DNA from: Sphingomonas ginsengisoli An et al. 2013
Lineage (GTDB): Bacteria > Pseudomonadota > Alphaproteobacteria > Sphingomonadales > Sphingomonadaceae
Direction of reading: 5' to 3'
DNA: 64,000 bases
NCBI RefSeq assembly: GCF_009363895.1
Contig: NZ_CP045434.1
Span: 1,426,001-1,490,000, forward strand
Shown: in pieces, positions 1 to 17,145 of the stretch
Numbering within the stretch: the first letter of the stretch is position 1
Layout: the number at the start of each line of letters is the position of its first letter
Translations under genes and position numbers: made by a program
Notes under the pieces: model-generated
Told to the model about the DNA's origin: nothing
The model's database searches: none
The model's input: the letters and a program-made list of their open reading frames with translations, nothing else

Positions 1-3000
1 CCCCAGGCCGGCCCACCCGCCGGCACCGTCACCACCGGCGCCGGCGACAGCGCACCGCAGGGCAAGAGCGGCGACGCCACCAGCGGCACCAGCCAGAGCG
101 CCACCCCCGGCCGGCCGAGCACCACCGACACCGGCGGCGACATCATCGTCACCGCCCAGCGCCGCTCCGAAGCGCTCCAGCAAGTGCCGATCTCGGTCTC
201 GGCCTTCACCGGCCAGGCGCTCGAGCGGCAGCAAATCAGCAATGCCAGCGACCTTCAGCTGTCGCTGCCCAACGTCACCTTCACCAAGACCAACTTCACT
301 TCGTCGAGCTTCACCATCCGCGGCATCGGCGACCTCTGCACCGGCTTCAGCTGCGACGCGGCGACCGGCATCCACGTCAACGACATGCCGCTCGTTTCCA
401 CCCGCCTGTTCGAGACCGAATATTTCGACCTCGAGCGGGTCGAGGTGCTGCGCGGTCCGCAGGGCACGCTGTTCGGCCGCAACGCGACCTCGGGCGTGGT
501 CAACTTCATCACCGCGCGGCCCAACCTCAGCCGCGCGGCGGCCTCGGCCAGCGTCGAGGTCGGCAATTACCAGTCGGTCAAACTGAACGCGATGGTCAAC
601 CTGCCGCTGACCGACACGCTCGGCGTGCGCGTGGCGGGCTATCTGCTCGGCCGCGACGGCTACACGAAGAACCTGTTCGACAATTCGCGGATCGACGGGC
701 GCGACCTGTGGGCGCTGCGCGGTTCGATCCGCTGGAAGCCGTCGGCGGGCACCACGCTCGACGTCATCGGCTATGCCTTTAACGAGGACGACGACCGCTC
801 GCGCATCCAGAAGCAGCTCTGCCACCGCGACCCGACCGGCGTCCTGGGCTGCCTCCCCGACCGCCTCGCCAACGAAGTGGTCAACGGCAATTCGACCCTC
901 TCGGCGACGCTCTCATCACGGCAGTTCATCAACGCTGCGGCCGGCTTCAACCCGCTGATCGCGAGCTTCGGGCTCGGCCTCACCAACTTGAACAGCGGGG
1001 TCGATCCCTTCTTCGGCGGGATCACCAACCCGTCCGACCTGCGCACCGTCAACGCCGACTTCAACCCGACCTACCGCGCGAAGGAATATTTCGTGATGGG
1101 CCGGCTCGAGCAGAATCTCGGCGACCAGTTCAGCGCCACGCTGACCGGCGGCTGGGCCAAGAACAGCGTCGACAGCCGCACCGACTACAACCTCCTCGCC
1201 GGCAACAGCCTCGCCGGCAATTCGGGCCTGGTAAACCTCTACGGCCTGAGCCTCGCCCCCGGCGCCGCCTTCCCGGGTGGGGTCAACCCGTTCACCAACG
1301 CGGTGCGGGCGCTGATCCCCAACGGTCCGCTCGGCAACATCTGCACCTCGGAAACCAACCTCAACTACACCGGCATCTACGGCGGCTTCACCAACCGCTG
1401 CACGCCCGGCAGCACAGACTACGACCGGTCGCAAAGCTACTACCGGCAATATTCGCTCGAGGGGCACATCGATTCCAACTTCAAGGGGCCGTTCAATTTC
1501 CTCTTGGGCGGCATCTATCTCGACGGCCGCTTCACCAACTCCAACTATTATGTCGCCAGCGCCGGCCTCGATTATGCCTCGGGCGTGCTCGGCGCGATCC
1601 AGGCGCTCGGCCAGCGCGCGGCGGGGGCGACCTTCCCCAACAGCTTCCTCGCCCCGCCCTTCTTCAACTCGGAGGTCAGCGACTTCCGCCTGAAGAGCTA
1701 CGGCCTGTTCGGCGAGGCCTATTTCCAGGCCAGCGACAAATTGAAGTTCACGCTCGGCGCCCGCTACAGCCACGACGACAAATTGCAGGTGGCGCGCGCG
1801 CCGATCTTGAGCTTCCTCGTCCCCTTCGGCCTGACCGACGCCAACCAGTCGCCGTTCCTCGGCCTCTACGACGCCGACGCCTCGACCGCCGGCAACCAGG
1901 CCAATGCGGTCGGCCGGGTCAAGTTCGGGCGGCTCACCGGCCGGCTCGTCGCCGACTATCAGATGACGCCCAACAACCTGCTCTACGCGTCCTATTCGCG
2001 CGGCTATAAGTCGGGCGGCCTCAACCCGCCAATCGACCCCTCGTTCAACGTCTCGCCGACCTTCAAGCCCGAATCGATCGACGCGTTCGAGCTTGGCAGC
2101 AAGAACACCTTCGCCGGCGGCGCGGTGCGGCTCAACCTCTCGGCCTTCTACTACAACTACAAGGGCCTCCAGCTCAGCCGCATCGTCGCCCGCACCTCGG
2201 TCAACGACAACACCGACGCCGGTATCTACGGCGCCGAGGCGGAGGCGGTGTTCAAGCCGACGCCCGACTTGCTCCTCAACCTCACCGGCTCCTACCTCCA
2301 CACCAAGATCAAGGGGTTGAGCCTGGTCGACCCGCGCGACCCGTCGGGCGGACGCAGCGACGCGGTGATCATCAAGGACCTCCAGGGCGGCGCCAATTGC
2401 GTCGTCTCGCCGGCTGTCGCGGGCGTGCCCGCGGCGGCGGTCAACGGCTTCGTCGGGGCGGTCAACGGCGCGCTCGGCCTCAATCCGCCGACCCCGATCC
2501 CCAGCACCAACACCACCGGCGCCTTCTCGCTCTGCTCGGCGCTGCAGGGCGCCGCGGCCAACCCGTCGGCGGCGCTGCGCACGGCCTTCGGCGTTCCTGC
2601 CGGCCCGCTCCCCTTCCTCGTCAACGAAGGCATCGCGCAGAATCTCAGCGGCAACCAGCTGCCCCAGTCGCCGCACTGGAAGGTCGGCGGCGGCGCGCAA
2701 TATACGCTGCGGCTCGGCAACGGGATGACGCTCGTCCCCCGTGCCGACGTCAACTATACGGGCAGCTTCTACGCGCGCAGCTTCAACCAGCCGATCGACA
2801 AGGTAAAGGGCTTCACCGTGGTCAACGCGCAGGTCCAGCTGAACGGCGCCGCCGACAAGTGGTTCGTCCGCGCCTTCGTCCAGAACCTCACCAACAACGA
2901 CGCGATCACCGGCCAGTTCGTCGCCGACGCGTCGTCGGGCCTGTTCACCAACGTCTTCACCCTCGAGCCGCGGCGCTTCGGCGCGGCGATCGGCGTGAAG

Positions 3001-3006
3001 TTCTGA
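1..3006 (+). CDS. TonB-dependent receptor, 5' end missing
   Basis: Outer-membrane active transporter driven by TonB. The reading frame is open from base 1. It begins in a Gly/Ser/Thr-rich linker and then shows a TonB-box/plug start (GGDIIVTAQRRSEALQQVP) at about 133-192, so the true start lies upstream and the GTG at 184 is internal. The plug contains RGIGD and the VLRGPQGTLFGRNATSG signature, followed by a long beta-barrel ending in a terminal aromatic strand (GAAIGVKF). Cys-containing extracellular-type loops (about bp 810-870 and 1330-1420) are large. The IIVTAQRR-type plug is common in sphingomonad receptors for plant-derived or aromatic substrates. The substrate cannot be read from sequence. 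Confidence 0.93.
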   Translation, partial: PQAGPPAGTVTTGAGDSAPQGKSGDATSGTSQSATPGRPSTTDTGGDIIVTAQRRSEALQQVPISVSAFTGQALERQQISNASDLQLSLPNVTFTKTNFTSSSFTIRGIGDLCTGFSCDAATGIHVNDMPLVSTRLFETEYFDLERVEVLRGPQGTLFGRNATSGVVNFITARPNLSRAAASASVEVGNYQSVKLNAMVNLPLTDTLGVRVAGYLLGRDGYTKNLFDNSRIDGRDLWALRGSIRWKPSAGTTLDVIGYAFNEDDDRSRIQKQLCHRDPTGVLGCLPDRLANEVVNGNSTLSATLSSRQFINAAAGFNPLIASFGLGLTNLNSGVDPFFGGITNPSDLRTVNADFNPTYRAKEYFVMGRLEQNLGDQFSATLTGGWAKNSVDSRTDYNLLAGNSLAGNSGLVNLYGLSLAPGAAFPGGVNPFTNAVRALIPNGPLGNICTSETNLNYTGIYGGFTNRCTPGSTDYDRSQSYYRQYSLEGHIDSNFKGPFNFLLGGIYLDGRFTNSNYYVASAGLDYASGVLGAIQALGQRAAGATFPNSFLAPPFFNSEVSDFRLKSYGLFGEAYFQASDKLKFTLGARYSHDDKLQVARAPILSFLVPFGLTDANQSPFLGLYDADASTAGNQANAVGRVKFGRLTGRLVADYQMTPNNLLYASYSRGYKSGGLNPPIDPSFNVSPTFKPESIDAFELGSKNTFAGGAVRLNLSAFYYNYKGLQLSRIVARTSVNDNTDAGIYGAEAEAVFKPTPDLLLNLTGSYLHTKIKGLSLVDPRDPSGGRSDAVIIKDLQGGANCVVSPAVAGVPAAAVNGFVGAVNGALGLNPPTPIPSTNTTGAFSLCSALQGAAANPSAALRTAFGVPAGPLPFLVNEGIAQNLSGNQLPQSPHWKVGGGAQYTLRLGNGMTLVPRADVNYTGSFYARSFNQPIDKVKGFTVVNAQVQLNGAADKWFVRAFVQNLTNNDAITGQFVADASSGLFTNVFTLEPRRFGAAIGVKF

Positions 3007-3021
3007 CAAGAGCCTGAGGCA

Positions 3022-3050
3022 GGCCGCGCCGGACCCGATCCGGCGCGGCC
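3022..3050. terminator. 12-bp perfect inverted repeat between convergent genes
   Basis: GGCCGCGCCGGA at 3022-3033 pairs perfectly with 3039-3050 across a 5-base loop. It lies between the stop of the receptor (3006) and the stop of the convergent DUF2141 gene (3057), so it could end transcripts from both sides. There is no T-run on either strand, so it is not a textbook intrinsic terminator. Confidence 0.6.
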
Positions 3051-3056
3051 GCTCCC

Positions 3057-3491
3057 TCAAAGCACGTAGCGCATCCGGATCGTCTCGGTGACGGTCCCCG
3101 CCGGCAGCACGAAGCGGATCTCGTCCCACCGCGGCGGCCGCGGCCGCATCGCCGGATTGGTCGAGAAACCGAACCCCTCGCGCGGAATACCGAAGGTCAT
3201 GTCGAGCTTGCCGTTGGCATTCTCGTCATGGATCACCAGCAACGCATAGGTCCCCGCCGGCACCCGCCCGAGCACCACCCGCGCCGCCTGCCCCGCCGGC
3301 ACCGTCCGCCCGACACTGCCGGGCACCTTCTGGCAATCGAGGAAGCGCTGCGCATCGCCGGTCAGGCAGACGTGCACCACCCCCTTGGCGTTGCGCAGCC
3401 CGTCGAGCTTGACCGTCAGCTCGCTCACCCCCGGCCCCGTCGCCGCACTGGAGACGAAGGCGGCGGCGGCGAGGAGGGCGAGGCGGATCAT
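3057..3491 (-). CDS. DUF2141 domain secreted protein
   Basis: 144 aa with an N-terminal signal peptide (MIRLALLAAAAFVSSAA). The body matches the DUF2141 family: a beta-rich domain with G-VHVCLTGDAQRFLDC near the start and the family hallmark HDENANGKLDMTFGIPREG at about residues 89-107, whose D-N-N-G-D pattern looks like a divalent-cation loop. Members are exported proteins of unknown function in proteobacteria. It is convergent with the receptor and divergent from the crt operon. Family assignment is firm; role unknown. Confidence 0.85.
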   Translation of the reverse strand: MIRLALLAAAAFVSSAATGPGVSELTVKLDGLRNAKGVVHVCLTGDAQRFLDCQKVPGSVGRTVPAGQAARVVLGRVPAGTYALLVIHDENANGKLDMTFGIPREGFGFSTNPAMRPRPPRWDEIRFVLPAGTVTETIRMRYVL

Positions 3492-13517: not shown

Positions 13518-14362
13518 GCCACTTCACGCGCTTCGTCGCCATCGACTGGTCGGGGGCGAAGGGGCGGCGGCACAAGGGAATCGCGGTCGCGCTGTGCGAG
13601 GCCGACGGCCCGCCCCGCCTCGTCCGCCCCGGCCATGTCTGGAGCCGCACCGAGGTCGCCGACTGGCTACTCAGGGAAGCCAAGCGCGCGCCAACCCTGT
13701 TCGGCTTCGACTTCAGCTTCGCCCCGCCCTTTGCCGAGCGCGGCGCCTATTTGCCCGGCGAAACCGGCGTCCCCGACACCGCCCGCGCCTTCTGGGCCTA
13801 TGTCGACACCCGAGCCCCCGACGAGGACCTCGGCGCCGCCAGCTTCCTCGAGGCGGTGCACCGCCGTCATTTCTATTTCGGGATCGCCGACGGGGTGAAG
13901 GCCGACTTCGTCCACTTCCGCCAGTGCGACACGCGGCTGAACGAGCAGGGCGGGCGCAAGACCGCCAGCGCCTATGACGCGATCGGCGCGGCGCAGGTCG
14001 CCAAGGCCAGCTTCTCCGGCATGCGCCTCCTCCACCGTCTCGACGGCCAGGTCGCCATCTGGCCGATGGATCCGTGGCCCGCTCACGGCAGCGCAGTGGT
14101 CGAAATCTACACCCGCATCTACCTCCGAATGGCAGGGATGGACGGCCGCAAACTGCGCACCCGCGCCCAGCTCAACCAGGCACTCGCCGGTCTCGGCAGC
14201 CCACCCGCCCGGCTCCGCTTCGAGCCCAGCGACCACCAGACCGACGCCCTCGTCACCGCAGCCGGGATGCGCGCACTCAGTCGCAATCCCGCCGCCTTCC
14301 GCCCCGCCGGCCTAACCCCCGCACTCGCGCGCACCGAAGGCTGGACCTTCGGCATCACCTGA
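13514..14362 (+). CDS. DUF429-like hypothetical protein
   Basis: 282 aa starting at GTG 13514, overlapping the previous stop (GTGA). The N-terminus VAIDWSGAKGRRHKGIAVAL followed by FGFDFSFAPPF resembles the RNase-H-like DUF429 group, in which conserved Asp residues lie on the first strands. EPSDHQTDALVTAAGMRAL near the C-terminus also fits that fold. Function unknown. Confidence 0.72.
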   Translation: MSHFTRFVAIDWSGAKGRRHKGIAVALCEADGPPRLVRPGHVWSRTEVADWLLREAKRAPTLFGFDFSFAPPFAERGAYLPGETGVPDTARAFWAYVDTRAPDEDLGAASFLEAVHRRHFYFGIADGVKADFVHFRQCDTRLNEQGGRKTASAYDAIGAAQVAKASFSGMRLLHRLDGQVAIWPMDPWPAHGSAVVEIYTRIYLRMAGMDGRKLRTRAQLNQALAGLGSPPARLRFEPSDHQTDALVTAAGMRALSRNPAAFRPAGLTPALARTEGWTFGIT

Positions 14363-14393
14363 CGCACCCTTGCTTTCGCCAAGGGATGATCGC

Positions 14394-14792
14394 ATGGACC
14401 GGGAACAGGCACTCGGCTTCGTCATGAAGGCCTATGCCGCGCGCGCCGCGGGCGACAAAGCGCTACTGGCGCAGATGTGGACCGAGGATGCCGAGTTTCG
14501 CATCGCCGGCGATCCCGCCCGGGTCGATGGCGTTGGTCTGGGCGACGGCAATCGCCCGATGGACACGGTCGCCGCGCTGATCGACCGCTTCCGCTTCGAG
14601 GATGTGACGCTGATCGATGCGGTGGTCGAAGGCCGCCGCCTCGCGCTTCACTGGCGGGTCATGGTGATCGCCGGTGATCACATGCCGGCGGTGACCGAGC
14701 TGATGGACCTCGTCACGCTGGCCGAGGACGGCCGCATCGCGTCGCTCGTCCAGTTCGCCGACACGGCGCTGATCCGCTACCTCGCGGCCTGA
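14394..14792 (+). CDS. NTF2/SnoaL-like small protein
   Basis: 132 aa. A cone-shaped alpha+beta pattern is suggested by AYAARAAGDKALLAQMWTEDAEFRIAG at the N-terminus and VTELMDLVTLAEDGRIASLVQFADTALI at the end, which is the usual SnoaL/NTF2-like layout. Such proteins range from isomerases to ligand-binding folds, and no catalytic residues can be named. ATG 14394 is preferred to the TTG at 14370. Confidence 0.72.
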   Translation: MDREQALGFVMKAYAARAAGDKALLAQMWTEDAEFRIAGDPARVDGVGLGDGNRPMDTVAALIDRFRFEDVTLIDAVVEGRRLALHWRVMVIAGDHMPAVTELMDLVTLAEDGRIASLVQFADTALIRYLAA

Positions 14793-14850: not shown

Positions 14851-14889
14851 GCCGGCTTAGCACAGTGGTAGTGCAGCGGTTTTGTAAAC
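14851..14889 (+). repeat. Left att repeat: 5' half of tRNA-Thr
   Basis: Identical to bases 1-39 of the intact tRNA at 17071, through the anticodon TGT and into the 3' side of the anticodon stem. It then diverges (CGAAGG replaced by GTCTGAAG). Not a functional tRNA: no T arm or acceptor 3' strand follows. Interpreted as the attL core. Confidence 0.85.
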
Positions 14890-14988: not shown

Positions 14989-14996
14989 GTAAAAGG

Positions 14997-15015
14997 TGCA
15001 CAAAAGCCTGCACAC
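14997..15015 (+). repeat. 19-bp island-end repeat, left copy
   Basis: TGCACAAAAGCCTGCACAC, identical to 16995-17013 and in the same orientation. It lies 107 bases inside the left tRNA repeat. With the preceding G it forms a dyad (GTGCA, 8-base gap, TGCAC). Placement at both ends fits recombinase arm-type sites. Confidence 0.6.
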
Positions 15016-15092: not shown

Positions 15093-15326
15093 TTAACCGG
15101 GGTAGCGCTTGGGGTCGTTCCCATAGGTCCATTCGGTGCGCCACTTGCCATGAGCGTTTTGGACATGAATCTGCGAATTCACCCCCAAAGCGAACTGCGC
15201 GACAGCATGTTGCCTCGCCGCGGCAATGGCCAGCGCCTGAGTGGCGTAGTGATAATCGGTGTTGTCCAGCCGAATTCGCCAGCCGTTCGGGCCAGGCAAA
15301 ATGTAGTATTCCTTCCTCGTACTCAT
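15093..15326 (-). CDS. DUF2188-like small protein of the island
   Basis: 77 aa from ATG 15326 (MSTRKEYYILPGPNGWRIR), chosen because GGAG lies 6 bases upstream. The frame continues to a TTG 24 bases earlier. The pattern YYILPGPNGWRIRLDNTDYH, then ATQALAIAAARQHA and SQIHVQNAHGKWRTEWTYGNDP resembles the DUF2188 fold (beta hairpin, helix, beta hairpin). Last gene of the toxin-antitoxin-chaperone operon, 33 bases after the chaperone stop. Role unknown. Confidence 0.68.
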   Translation of the reverse strand: MSTRKEYYILPGPNGWRIRLDNTDYHYATQALAIAAARQHAVAQFALGVNSQIHVQNAHGKWRTEWTYGNDPKRYPG

Positions 15327-15359
15327 AAGTTGCTCCATCAGGAGCGCCAATGGCGCTAG

Positions 15360-15875
15360 CTAGTCAGCGGGACGCTGACCCTCAGCTAGCTTCGGCTTCT
15401 TCTCGATATGAGCAGTCGACGCGATTGCCGGCAAAGGGGGAAGCTCGAGTCCCGCTCCCCATGCAAATTGCGCCATGAGGTTTCGGAAGTACGGGTAAGC
15501 AGCAAACGACCCCACATTGCGGCAGAAACCAACAGCTGCGGCATCGGCAGCGTCAGTCCTCACGTCGTAGCTAACAAAAAAGTCAGCCACGCAACTCAGG
15601 ACCTTCTTTCGACCAGCCTTGCCTGCAACGTTGTAGCGGAAGATCGCAGCGACCTCTCCCTCTCCGGGTGTGAATTCACAGGCGACCACCTCGCGGCCAT
15701 ACGAAAGTTGCATCTCAGGTCCGGCGAGGTTGAGCGCCTCAGCTTTGACGTCGAATTTCGAGGAAAGAAGACGGATGGCGTTCAAGCGCGACGAAATGGC
15801 CACGGCGTTGTATTCGTCCGCGCTGAAGCCTTTCTGGCGGGGTTCAACCACTGCAGGGGCTTGATTTTTCGTCAT
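15360..15875 (-). CDS. SecB-like chaperone of a toxin-antitoxin-chaperone system
   Basis: 171 aa. The C-terminal block FCRNVGSFAAYPYFRNLMAQFAWGAGLELPPLP (split here as FCRNVGSFAAYPYFRNLMA plus GAGLELPPLP) matches the SecB signature in which a YP-x-R element precedes a G-x-PPL-x-P motif. The N-terminal half has the beta-strand pattern of SecB (ISSRLNAIRLLSSKFDV, REVVACEFTPGEGEVAAIFRY). Start ATG 15875 overlaps the antitoxin stop (ATGA). In TAC systems such solitary SecB homologues fold and protect the antitoxin; that role is inferred here from the gene order. Confidence 0.8.
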   Translation of the reverse strand: MTKNQAPAVVEPRQKGFSADEYNAVAISSRLNAIRLLSSKFDVKAEALNLAGPEMQLSYGREVVACEFTPGEGEVAAIFRYNVAGKAGRKKVLSCVADFFVSYDVRTDAADAAAVGFCRNVGSFAAYPYFRNLMAQFAWGAGLELPPLPAIASTAHIEKKPKLAEGQRPAD

Positions 15876-16339
15876 TGTGCAACCGCCATTTCGGGCAATC
15901 GGGGTCGTCGTAGCGCTCCGAGAGCAAGGCCAAGCCGCTCATCCCCCGGGCACTCAAACAAACCCTCTTCCTCCTCGCGAACCTCTTCCTCGGCGTTGAG
16001 GTTTTCCCAGATGCTGGTCACGTTTTGGGCAGCCGCAATCAGGGCAGCACGCTCGGCGGAGGCTTCCTCTTCATCCAAACGCTTGCAGGAAGTGCAGGTA
16101 ACCTCAGCCACCTCACCCATCGCGTAAACAGCTCGTGCGAGAAGTTTAATCGTGAAGTTCTTACAATCGTCAGAGAAAATCTGAGACACGCGCGCCTTAG
16201 TGACACCCATCGCTTCAGCCAGCTCAGTACGCGACATGCCTTTTTCCTTCATCAACCGATGAAGAAAAGACTGCACGTCAACAACAAGCGCCTCCTCAGC
16301 ATAGACAGCAGAGCGCTTGTTCGCATTCTGCTCAAACAT
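15872..16339 (-). CDS. Xre-family antitoxin with C-terminal extension
   Basis: 155 aa from ATG 16339 (MFEQNANKRS), one base after the toxin stop; longer in-frame starts would overlap the toxin. The HTH_3/Xre domain spans about residues 18-75: FLHRLMKEKGMSRTELAEAMG, then VTKARVSQIFSDDCKNFTIK, LLARAVYAMG. A CTSC pair follows. The tail of about 60 residues is acidic and includes SIWENLNAEEEVREEEEGLF. In chaperone-dependent HigA-type antitoxins an extension of this kind is the chaperone-addiction region; the analogy is inferred. Confidence 0.82.
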   Translation of the reverse strand: MFEQNANKRSAVYAEEALVVDVQSFLHRLMKEKGMSRTELAEAMGVTKARVSQIFSDDCKNFTIKLLARAVYAMGEVAEVTCTSCKRLDEEEASAERAALIAAAQNVTSIWENLNAEEEVREEEEGLFECPGDERLGLALGALRRPRLPEMAVAQ

Positions 16340-16340
16340 C

Positions 16341-16742
16341 TCAGTTCCCTTTCCCAATTTCATCAACACGCGATTTAGCTCTCTTAAGAATTTTCGGATC
16401 TGCCTTATTCTGCTTTTTGGCAGTATCCATATCAACAATAATGAAAGTTTTCTTCAGTGATACTTGTCTCACAAATCCATATAGGCGGATTTTAAAGCCC
16501 TTGAATGCTTGAAGCATAAGATTGGTTCTGGTGGCCCGGCCCTCATTCGGATTGAACATCTCTTCGGTCAGTGGCCTGCCGTCGCACCACAGCTCCATGA
16601 TGCGCAGCAAACGCGACTGATACCTCTCCTCGATACCGTCAAAGTCAGGTTTGACGTGGGACAAGATCGCCACCTGCCCATTGCCGGTGCTCGCCACATG
16701 CTCACAACCGAGCTTTGCAAGTTCATCATTGCCATCGGTCAT
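16341..16742 (-). CDS. Putative RelE/HigB-fold toxin
   Basis: 133 aa. The C-terminal half (QAFKGFKIRLYGFVRQ, TFIIVDMDTAKKQNKADPKI, LKRAKSRVDEI) follows the RelE/HigB layout: strand pair with basic residues, a strand with KK, then a helix with spaced basic residues. The N-terminus has no recognised domain. First gene of the operon, directly followed by the Xre gene, which is the HigB-HigA order. No strong ribosome-binding site precedes ATG 16742. Assignment rests on pattern plus context. Confidence 0.65.
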   Translation of the reverse strand: MTDGNDELAKLGCEHVASTGNGQVAILSHVKPDFDGIEERYQSRLLRIMELWCDGRPLTEEMFNPNEGRATRTNLMLQAFKGFKIRLYGFVRQVSLKKTFIIVDMDTAKKQNKADPKILKRAKSRVDEIGKGN

Positions 16743-16770: not shown

Positions 16771-17070
16771 ACCCGTTGCAAGGCATTTCTATCCGATGAT
16801 TGCGTCCGACCAACGACATTACGATTAGTTCATCGGTTTCCAGAACCCATGAACACTCCCAGGCCGCAGTGCGGAATTGCGCCCACTGTGCAGACTCAGG
16901 TCATGGATGGCGGCATTCTGCGAAATTTTGGGAGGCAGAAGGCAATTTAGATCGGATGGACAGTCTTGTTTTGATTGTGCAAAGGACGCGAGCATGCACA
17001 AAAGCCTGCACACATGCAGCGGTTTTACGCATCAAATAAGCGAAGAAAATCCTTTAGATTCAATAATTTA
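16771..17070. other. Right-end non-coding region of the island
   Basis: No convincing gene: the short open frames here have no ribosome-binding site and no recognisable protein pattern. It contains the right copy of the 19-bp repeat (16995-17013), a CTGCGAA motif (16918-16924) and an A/T-rich stretch (about 17040-17070). That stretch must now serve as the promoter region of the intact tRNA-Thr. Confidence 0.55.
16995..17013 (+). repeat. 19-bp island-end repeat, right copy
   Basis: Identical to 14997-15015, same orientation, 57 bases before the intact tRNA. See the left copy; together they bracket the cargo genes. Confidence 0.6.
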
Positions 17071-17145
17071 GCCGGCTTAGCACAGTGGTAGTGCAGCGGT
17101 TTTGTAAACCGAAGGTCGGGGGTTCAAATCCCTCAGCCGGCACCA
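17071..17145 (+). tRNA. tRNA-Thr (anticodon TGT)
   Basis: Complete cloverleaf with encoded CCA. Acceptor GCCGGCT pairs with AGCCGGC, D arm GCAC/GTGC, anticodon loop TTTGTAA with TGT at positions 34-36, T arm around GGTTCAAAT. The 27-43 pair is a G-A mismatch. Its first 39 bases are duplicated at 14851, and the sequence upstream belongs to the integrated island. Confidence 0.96.

Follow-up and report, generated by a model that had tools for sequence, protein, structure and literature searches.

A HigBA-type toxin-antitoxin-chaperone operon in a probable integrase-less mini-island at a tRNA-Thr gene of Sphingomonas ginsengisoli

We noted that a 64,000-nucleotide stretch of Sphingomonas ginsengisoli DNA (the window; contig NZ_CP045434.1, genome G000) carries on its minus strand a putative toxin-antitoxin-chaperone (TAC) operon, and that this operon is flanked on both sides by the 5′ half of a tRNA-Thr gene. 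We interpret the arrangement as a HigBA-type TAC carried by a site-specifically integrated mini-island that lacks an integrase, and assign this explanation as a whole a probability of roughly 0.8. The TAC assignment is close to certain and the placement of the operon in an integrated island only slightly less so; by analogy with published systems, the TAC probably acts as an abortive-infection and addiction module. The genes are as follows.

15093..15326, minus strand: DUF2188 protein, 77 aa, passenger gene and PADLOC candidate PDC-S16 (PF09954, E 4.9e-7; PDC-S16, E 2e-8)
15360..15875, minus strand: SecB-like TAC chaperone, 171 aa
15872..16339, minus strand: Xre/HigA-like antitoxin, 155 aa, whose C-terminal extension has a Trp 45 residues before the end (PF01381, E 2.8e-7; tail survey)
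16341..16742, minus strand: HigB/RelE-fold toxin, 133 aa

The four open reading frames (ORFs) lie where a previous sequence-only reading had placed them, with the one-base gap between toxin (end 16341) and antitoxin (ATG 16339), the ATGA overlap of antitoxin and chaperone at 15875-15872 and the C-terminal chaperone signature (AYPYFR and GLELPPLPAI) that it described. The order toxin-antitoxin-SecB-like chaperone is thus found in one putative operon, called from spacing alone. A mechanically found 188-aa Xre ORF starting at 16438 runs into the toxin; the nearest homologs are 155-156 aa long.

In the Pfam and NCBIfam libraries, only the antitoxin helix-turn-helix (HTH) and DUF2188 gave matches; toxin and chaperone had none at E ≤ 1, nor any in PHROGs at E ≤ 0.01. 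With PADLOC there was no match for the chaperone, a single weak one for the toxin (PDC-M28A, E 0.0011) and several weak ones, to candidate HTH families, for the antitoxin. Structure comparison placed the toxin in the HigB/RelE fold, where sequence gives no match, and the 171-aa protein inside the SecB fold; a profile of the chaperone also matched Rv1957 weakly (E 7e-4). Fold, profile match and gene order together support the kinship with HigB1-HigA1-SecB that had been proposed. A PDB search with the single chaperone sequence returned chance matches, a profile being needed, and the matches of the toxin profile to pyruvate oxidase and other proteins were discarded as chance. Across 42 toxin sequences, E67, R69 and K109 are invariant, K113 is present in 39 and N74 in 32; the key residues reported for the HigB toxin of TACs are E66, R68, N73, K95, K99, K58 and R77 (PMC9098466).

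At E ≤ 0.001, the chaperone matched 162 proteins and the toxin 89. The three-gene order recurs in 10 of 12 other cellular loci and in all seven IMG/VR contigs found, giving 17 related loci, the ten cellular ones being drawn from two collections in which one species is possibly counted twice. Because of these many matches and the repetition of the order in 17 other loci, the module is more than a chance neighbourhood. The two cellular loci without the trio hold only a chaperone fragment (L009) and a degenerate match with stops (L068, genome G157). Among 397 family genomes, six had a match, one of them degenerate, and scanning these genomes gave seven loci. In three of the phage-like contigs (L070, L072 and L073) the gene next to the TAC encodes a tyrosine integrase; in L071 the TAC (1853-3188) lies between the terminase large subunit and portal genes; and in L069 and L074 a tape-measure gene is about 3.5 kb or less away. 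Three Sphingobium plasmid records match at 28-37% identity, and annotated phages gave no match. No tRNA-Thr was found near the 17 loci (there is one tRNA-Tyr, in L072), and exact direct repeats of at least 17 nt around the chaperone were found in none of them, a weak negative on short contigs.

The variable C-terminal extension of TAC antitoxins is reported to bind the chaperone via Trp108 and Tyr114 (PMC5105189), a ClpX degron being reported there as well (PMC8165232). Such an extension (ChAD) with an aromatic motif is a consistent feature here: 17 of 18 loci (the window and the 17 others) have a Trp among the last 60 aa, as do 31 of 31 antitoxin homologs, a set overlapping the 18 loci. The antitoxin ends in -AA in 12 of the 18 loci, as against 16 of 429 mechanically found ORFs of at least 150 aa from the same loci, and in nine of the 31 homologs (again the overlapping set); the CmdA C-terminus is given as LAA (PMC11618068).

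The sequence-only reading had missed that two exact 39-bp copies of the tRNA-Thr 5′ half flank the module, which occupies a 2,220-bp insertion between them. The features of this island and its left flank are as follows.

14851..14889, plus strand: left core (attL-like), the displaced 5′ 39 nt of tRNA-Thr (exact direct repeat with 17071-17109, spacing 2,220 bp)
14997..15015, no strand assigned: left arm-like 19-bp repeat, TGCACAAAAGCCTGCACAC (exact repeat at both island ends)
16995..17013, no strand assigned: right arm-like 19-bp repeat (exact repeat, genome search, motif scan)
17071..17145, plus strand: intact tRNA-Thr(TGT), of which nt 1-39 form the right core (attR-like) (ARAGORN and repeat)
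14370..14792, plus strand: SnoaL-like gene, chromosomal left flank, outside the island (PF12680, E 1.6e-8)

Identity between the cores breaks off at nt 40 and just 5′ of nt 1, and at up to three mismatches the genome holds only these two copies of the 39-nt core. The same is true of the arm-like repeat, which is set in from the left core by 107 nt and from the right core by 57 nt; its motif, GCACA-N5-8-GCAC, occurs twice in the window, once at each island end. The left arm repeat together with CTTTT (14996-15015) can also be read as a terminator-like hairpin just 3′ of the operon on the minus strand. At up to two mismatches the arm motif is found in 70 of the 397 family genomes, mostly at lone scattered places, so that it is not diagnostic of islands by itself. 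No viral contig matched the arm 18-mer or the left junction exactly. There is no PF00589 place between the island repeats; nine lie elsewhere in the genome.

The tRNA-Thr site is empty in genomes of the same genus. In G197, G274 and G392 the counterpart of the gene ending at 14362 directly abuts a single intact tRNA-Thr, and in the genus-mate G405 a SnoaL-like stretch continues into tRNA-Thr with no insertion, which places the SnoaL-like gene in the flank rather than in the island. A single Pfam scan, of an over-long ORF, did not bear out a 'DUF429-like' label for the gene to its left.

A sister island was found in one genome of the genus, G401 (L138), where 2,280 bp separate two exact 39-nt tRNA-Thr 5′ copies. 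Its arm-like repeats, oriented as in the window, stand at gaps of 134 nt and 58 nt, and again there is no integrase, those of G225 and G144 described below having no match inside. Its cargo differs. One protein is of the HNH kind (PF01844, E 7e-8); the other is a TIR protein of the CAP12/Pycsar type (PF10137, E 1e-19), with PADLOC matches to a TIR effector and PDC-S35. Larger, integrase-bearing elements use the site too. In G408 (L139) the copies share 37 identical nt and lie 8,053 bp apart, enclosing an integrase, a trypsin-like protein (PDC-S45, E 7e-90) and an RNase H/PD-(D/E)XK protein. The copies in G225 and G144 are separated by 44,867 and 49,822 bp, with integrases, 48% identical to each other, just inside the left copy. 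At the right ends of these last two elements we noted by eye TTGACC-N17-TAGGGA 5′ of the restored tRNA-Thr (L058:8594-8634 and the same place in L060), perhaps a replacement, element-borne promoter; no promoter of this type was found in the window.

Searching the family with the 39-mer gave a match in 47 of 397 genomes and two copies in three, and a genus-wide search found neighbouring paired 5′-half copies in three of 71 genomes (G000, G401 and G408). Multiple copies were also seen in G022 (four on four contigs) and G254 (two at contig edges). G168 (L141) shows a different arrangement and was not counted: its two tRNA-Thr(TGT) copies are both complete, differ in D-arm allele and are separated by 14.1 kb.

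Several observations weigh against our interpretation. No solved relative of the toxin emerged from sequence-profile search, and its best Foldseek match reached only E 3.7e-3. HigB1 K58 is without a counterpart in the toxin (T59 is there in 36 of 42 sequences) and R77 cannot be placed, in a residue register set by motif and not by a printed structural alignment. D27 of Rv1957, the contact for Trp108, falls on A33 of the chaperone (Ala in 18 and Gly in 12 of 46 sequences), and the window antitoxin ends in -VAQ, not -AA. As for the island, the arm motif was picked after the island ends had been seen; it points the other way in G225 and G144, single loci of which have up to three occurrences, and is absent from G408. 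Finally, no consensus promoter for the restored tRNA-Thr was found in the window.

Two alternatives concern the module itself. The sequence-only reading took DUF2188 as a fourth component, and the gene does lie on the same strand, 33 nt past the chaperone stop, and is itself a PADLOC candidate. Its start is more likely the ATG at 15326, with a Shine-Dalgarno-like GGAG 6 nt upstream (by eye), than the TTG at 15350. However, phmmer detected DUF2188 beside none of the 17 related loci (a search of low power for 77 aa), and of the five TAC genomes only that of the window holds PF09954, both within the island and near 2,528 kb, the Pfam model finding none anywhere in the other four. On these neighbourhoods and the Pfam-model search we reject a conserved four-gene system, and we regard a working role for DUF2188 in the module as unlikely. 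The closest DUF2188 homologs sit on short metagenome contigs; the second gene of the genome, near 2,528 kb (E 1e-19), has a tyrosine recombinase about 13 kb away at 2,514.5 kb. Less probable still is an ordinary chromosomal type II toxin-antitoxin pair beside an unrelated export chaperone. In its favour, a canonical SecB is encoded elsewhere in the genome (PF02556 at 788 kb), a family that does not match the TAC chaperone; the SecB fold, the Rv1957 match and the repeated gene order speak for the TAC.

The origin of the island is less settled. It may be a decayed prophage or integrative element, in which a larger TAC-bearing element lost its integrase and most genes and would now move only by accretion with an incoming element; we give this somewhat less than an even chance. 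Phage-like contigs carry TACs of this family, three of the seven with an adjoining tyrosine integrase; G225 and G144 have integrase-bearing elements of 45-50 kb at this site; and elements that keep attL and attR without an integrase are already defined as cis-mobilizable elements (CIMEs; PMC5704250). However, no integrase remnant is present: the G225 and G144 integrases had no tblastn match in the island. Both arms and both cores are exact, and the G401 island, of near-equal size and with unrelated cargo in the same arm layout, the right-arm gaps of the two islands being 58 and 59 nt, would require an identical deletion twice. Decay is therefore not the sole reading, and because of the sister island we lean slightly towards a mobile cassette moved in trans. 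Its full form, a family of integrase-less cassettes of about 2.2 kb, with cores, arms and an exchangeable defence module, that borrows a prophage tyrosine integrase at the tRNA-Thr 5′-half site, is a tentative and rather doubtful proposal. The cases are few and the arms flipped in G225 and G144, which counsels caution. The nine PF00589 loci of the genome include no close relative of the G225 and G144 integrases (at best about 30-33% identity over about 110 aa).

On our interpretation of a HigBA-type TAC in an integrated mini-island, a tyrosine recombinase from elsewhere would have put the island into the 5′ half of tRNA-Thr, which the island's right end would restore. The antitoxin would neutralise the toxin and repress the operon. 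Were the chaperone drawn off, phage structural proteins being the likely agents, or the island lost, the antitoxin would be degraded and the freed toxin would cut mRNA on ribosomes, stopping growth; this would abort infection and punish island loss.

Both components belong to known kinds, a TAC and an att-flanked element without an integrase. HigB1-HigA1-SecB(TA) (Rv1955-1956-1957) shares with the window operon the gene order, the toxin and chaperone folds, the LPPLP tip of the chaperone and the Trp-bearing antitoxin tail. It differs in that aligned identity of toxin and chaperone is only 15-16%, the equivalents of K58 and D27 are not conserved in the window family, and the latter occurs in an att-flanked mini-island and phage-like contigs. 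As to the suggestion of an undescribed TAC lineage, the sequences are divergent and we found no published sphingomonad TAC in open papers, within the wording used, but in catalytic-site motif, fold and order they match known TACs. The TAC logic is also that of higBAC (E. coli C496) and CmdTAC, reported as anti-phage systems in which phage structural proteins relieve the chaperone (PMC11980606, PMC11618068). CmdT is, however, an ADP-ribosyltransferase, and for the window TAC a defence role is putative.

The island differs from a CIME in that, at one site, the window and G401 hold islands of the same size whose arms are shared but whose cargo differs. Islander tDNA islands likewise split the tRNA and displace a fragment; in that survey the 5′ fragment type made up 159 of 3,919 tRNA islands, and integrase-less candidates were rejected by design (PMC4383910). 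E. coli is known to carry defence islands whose mobility is unclear, and these typically include an integrase (PMC10121019); within the wording used, we found no integrase-less defence island of this kind at tRNA genes in open papers.

The operon represents a sphingomonad branch of TAC modules with members in phage-like contigs, one of which has its TAC between terminase and portal. This last placement poses a puzzle, since the structural proteins of such a phage might be expected to trigger its own TAC. The island packs a single defence module into little beyond two recombination sites at one tRNA gene, and the different defence-like gene pair in G401 suggests small exchangeable defence packets. 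If the cassette proposal is true, these cassettes (TAC and DUF2188 here, HNH and TIR in G401) would be the smallest tRNA-targeted defence satellites. Standard island finders that depend on an integrase would miss such an island, and packaging of this kind could account for lone defence genes with no mobility gene nearby.
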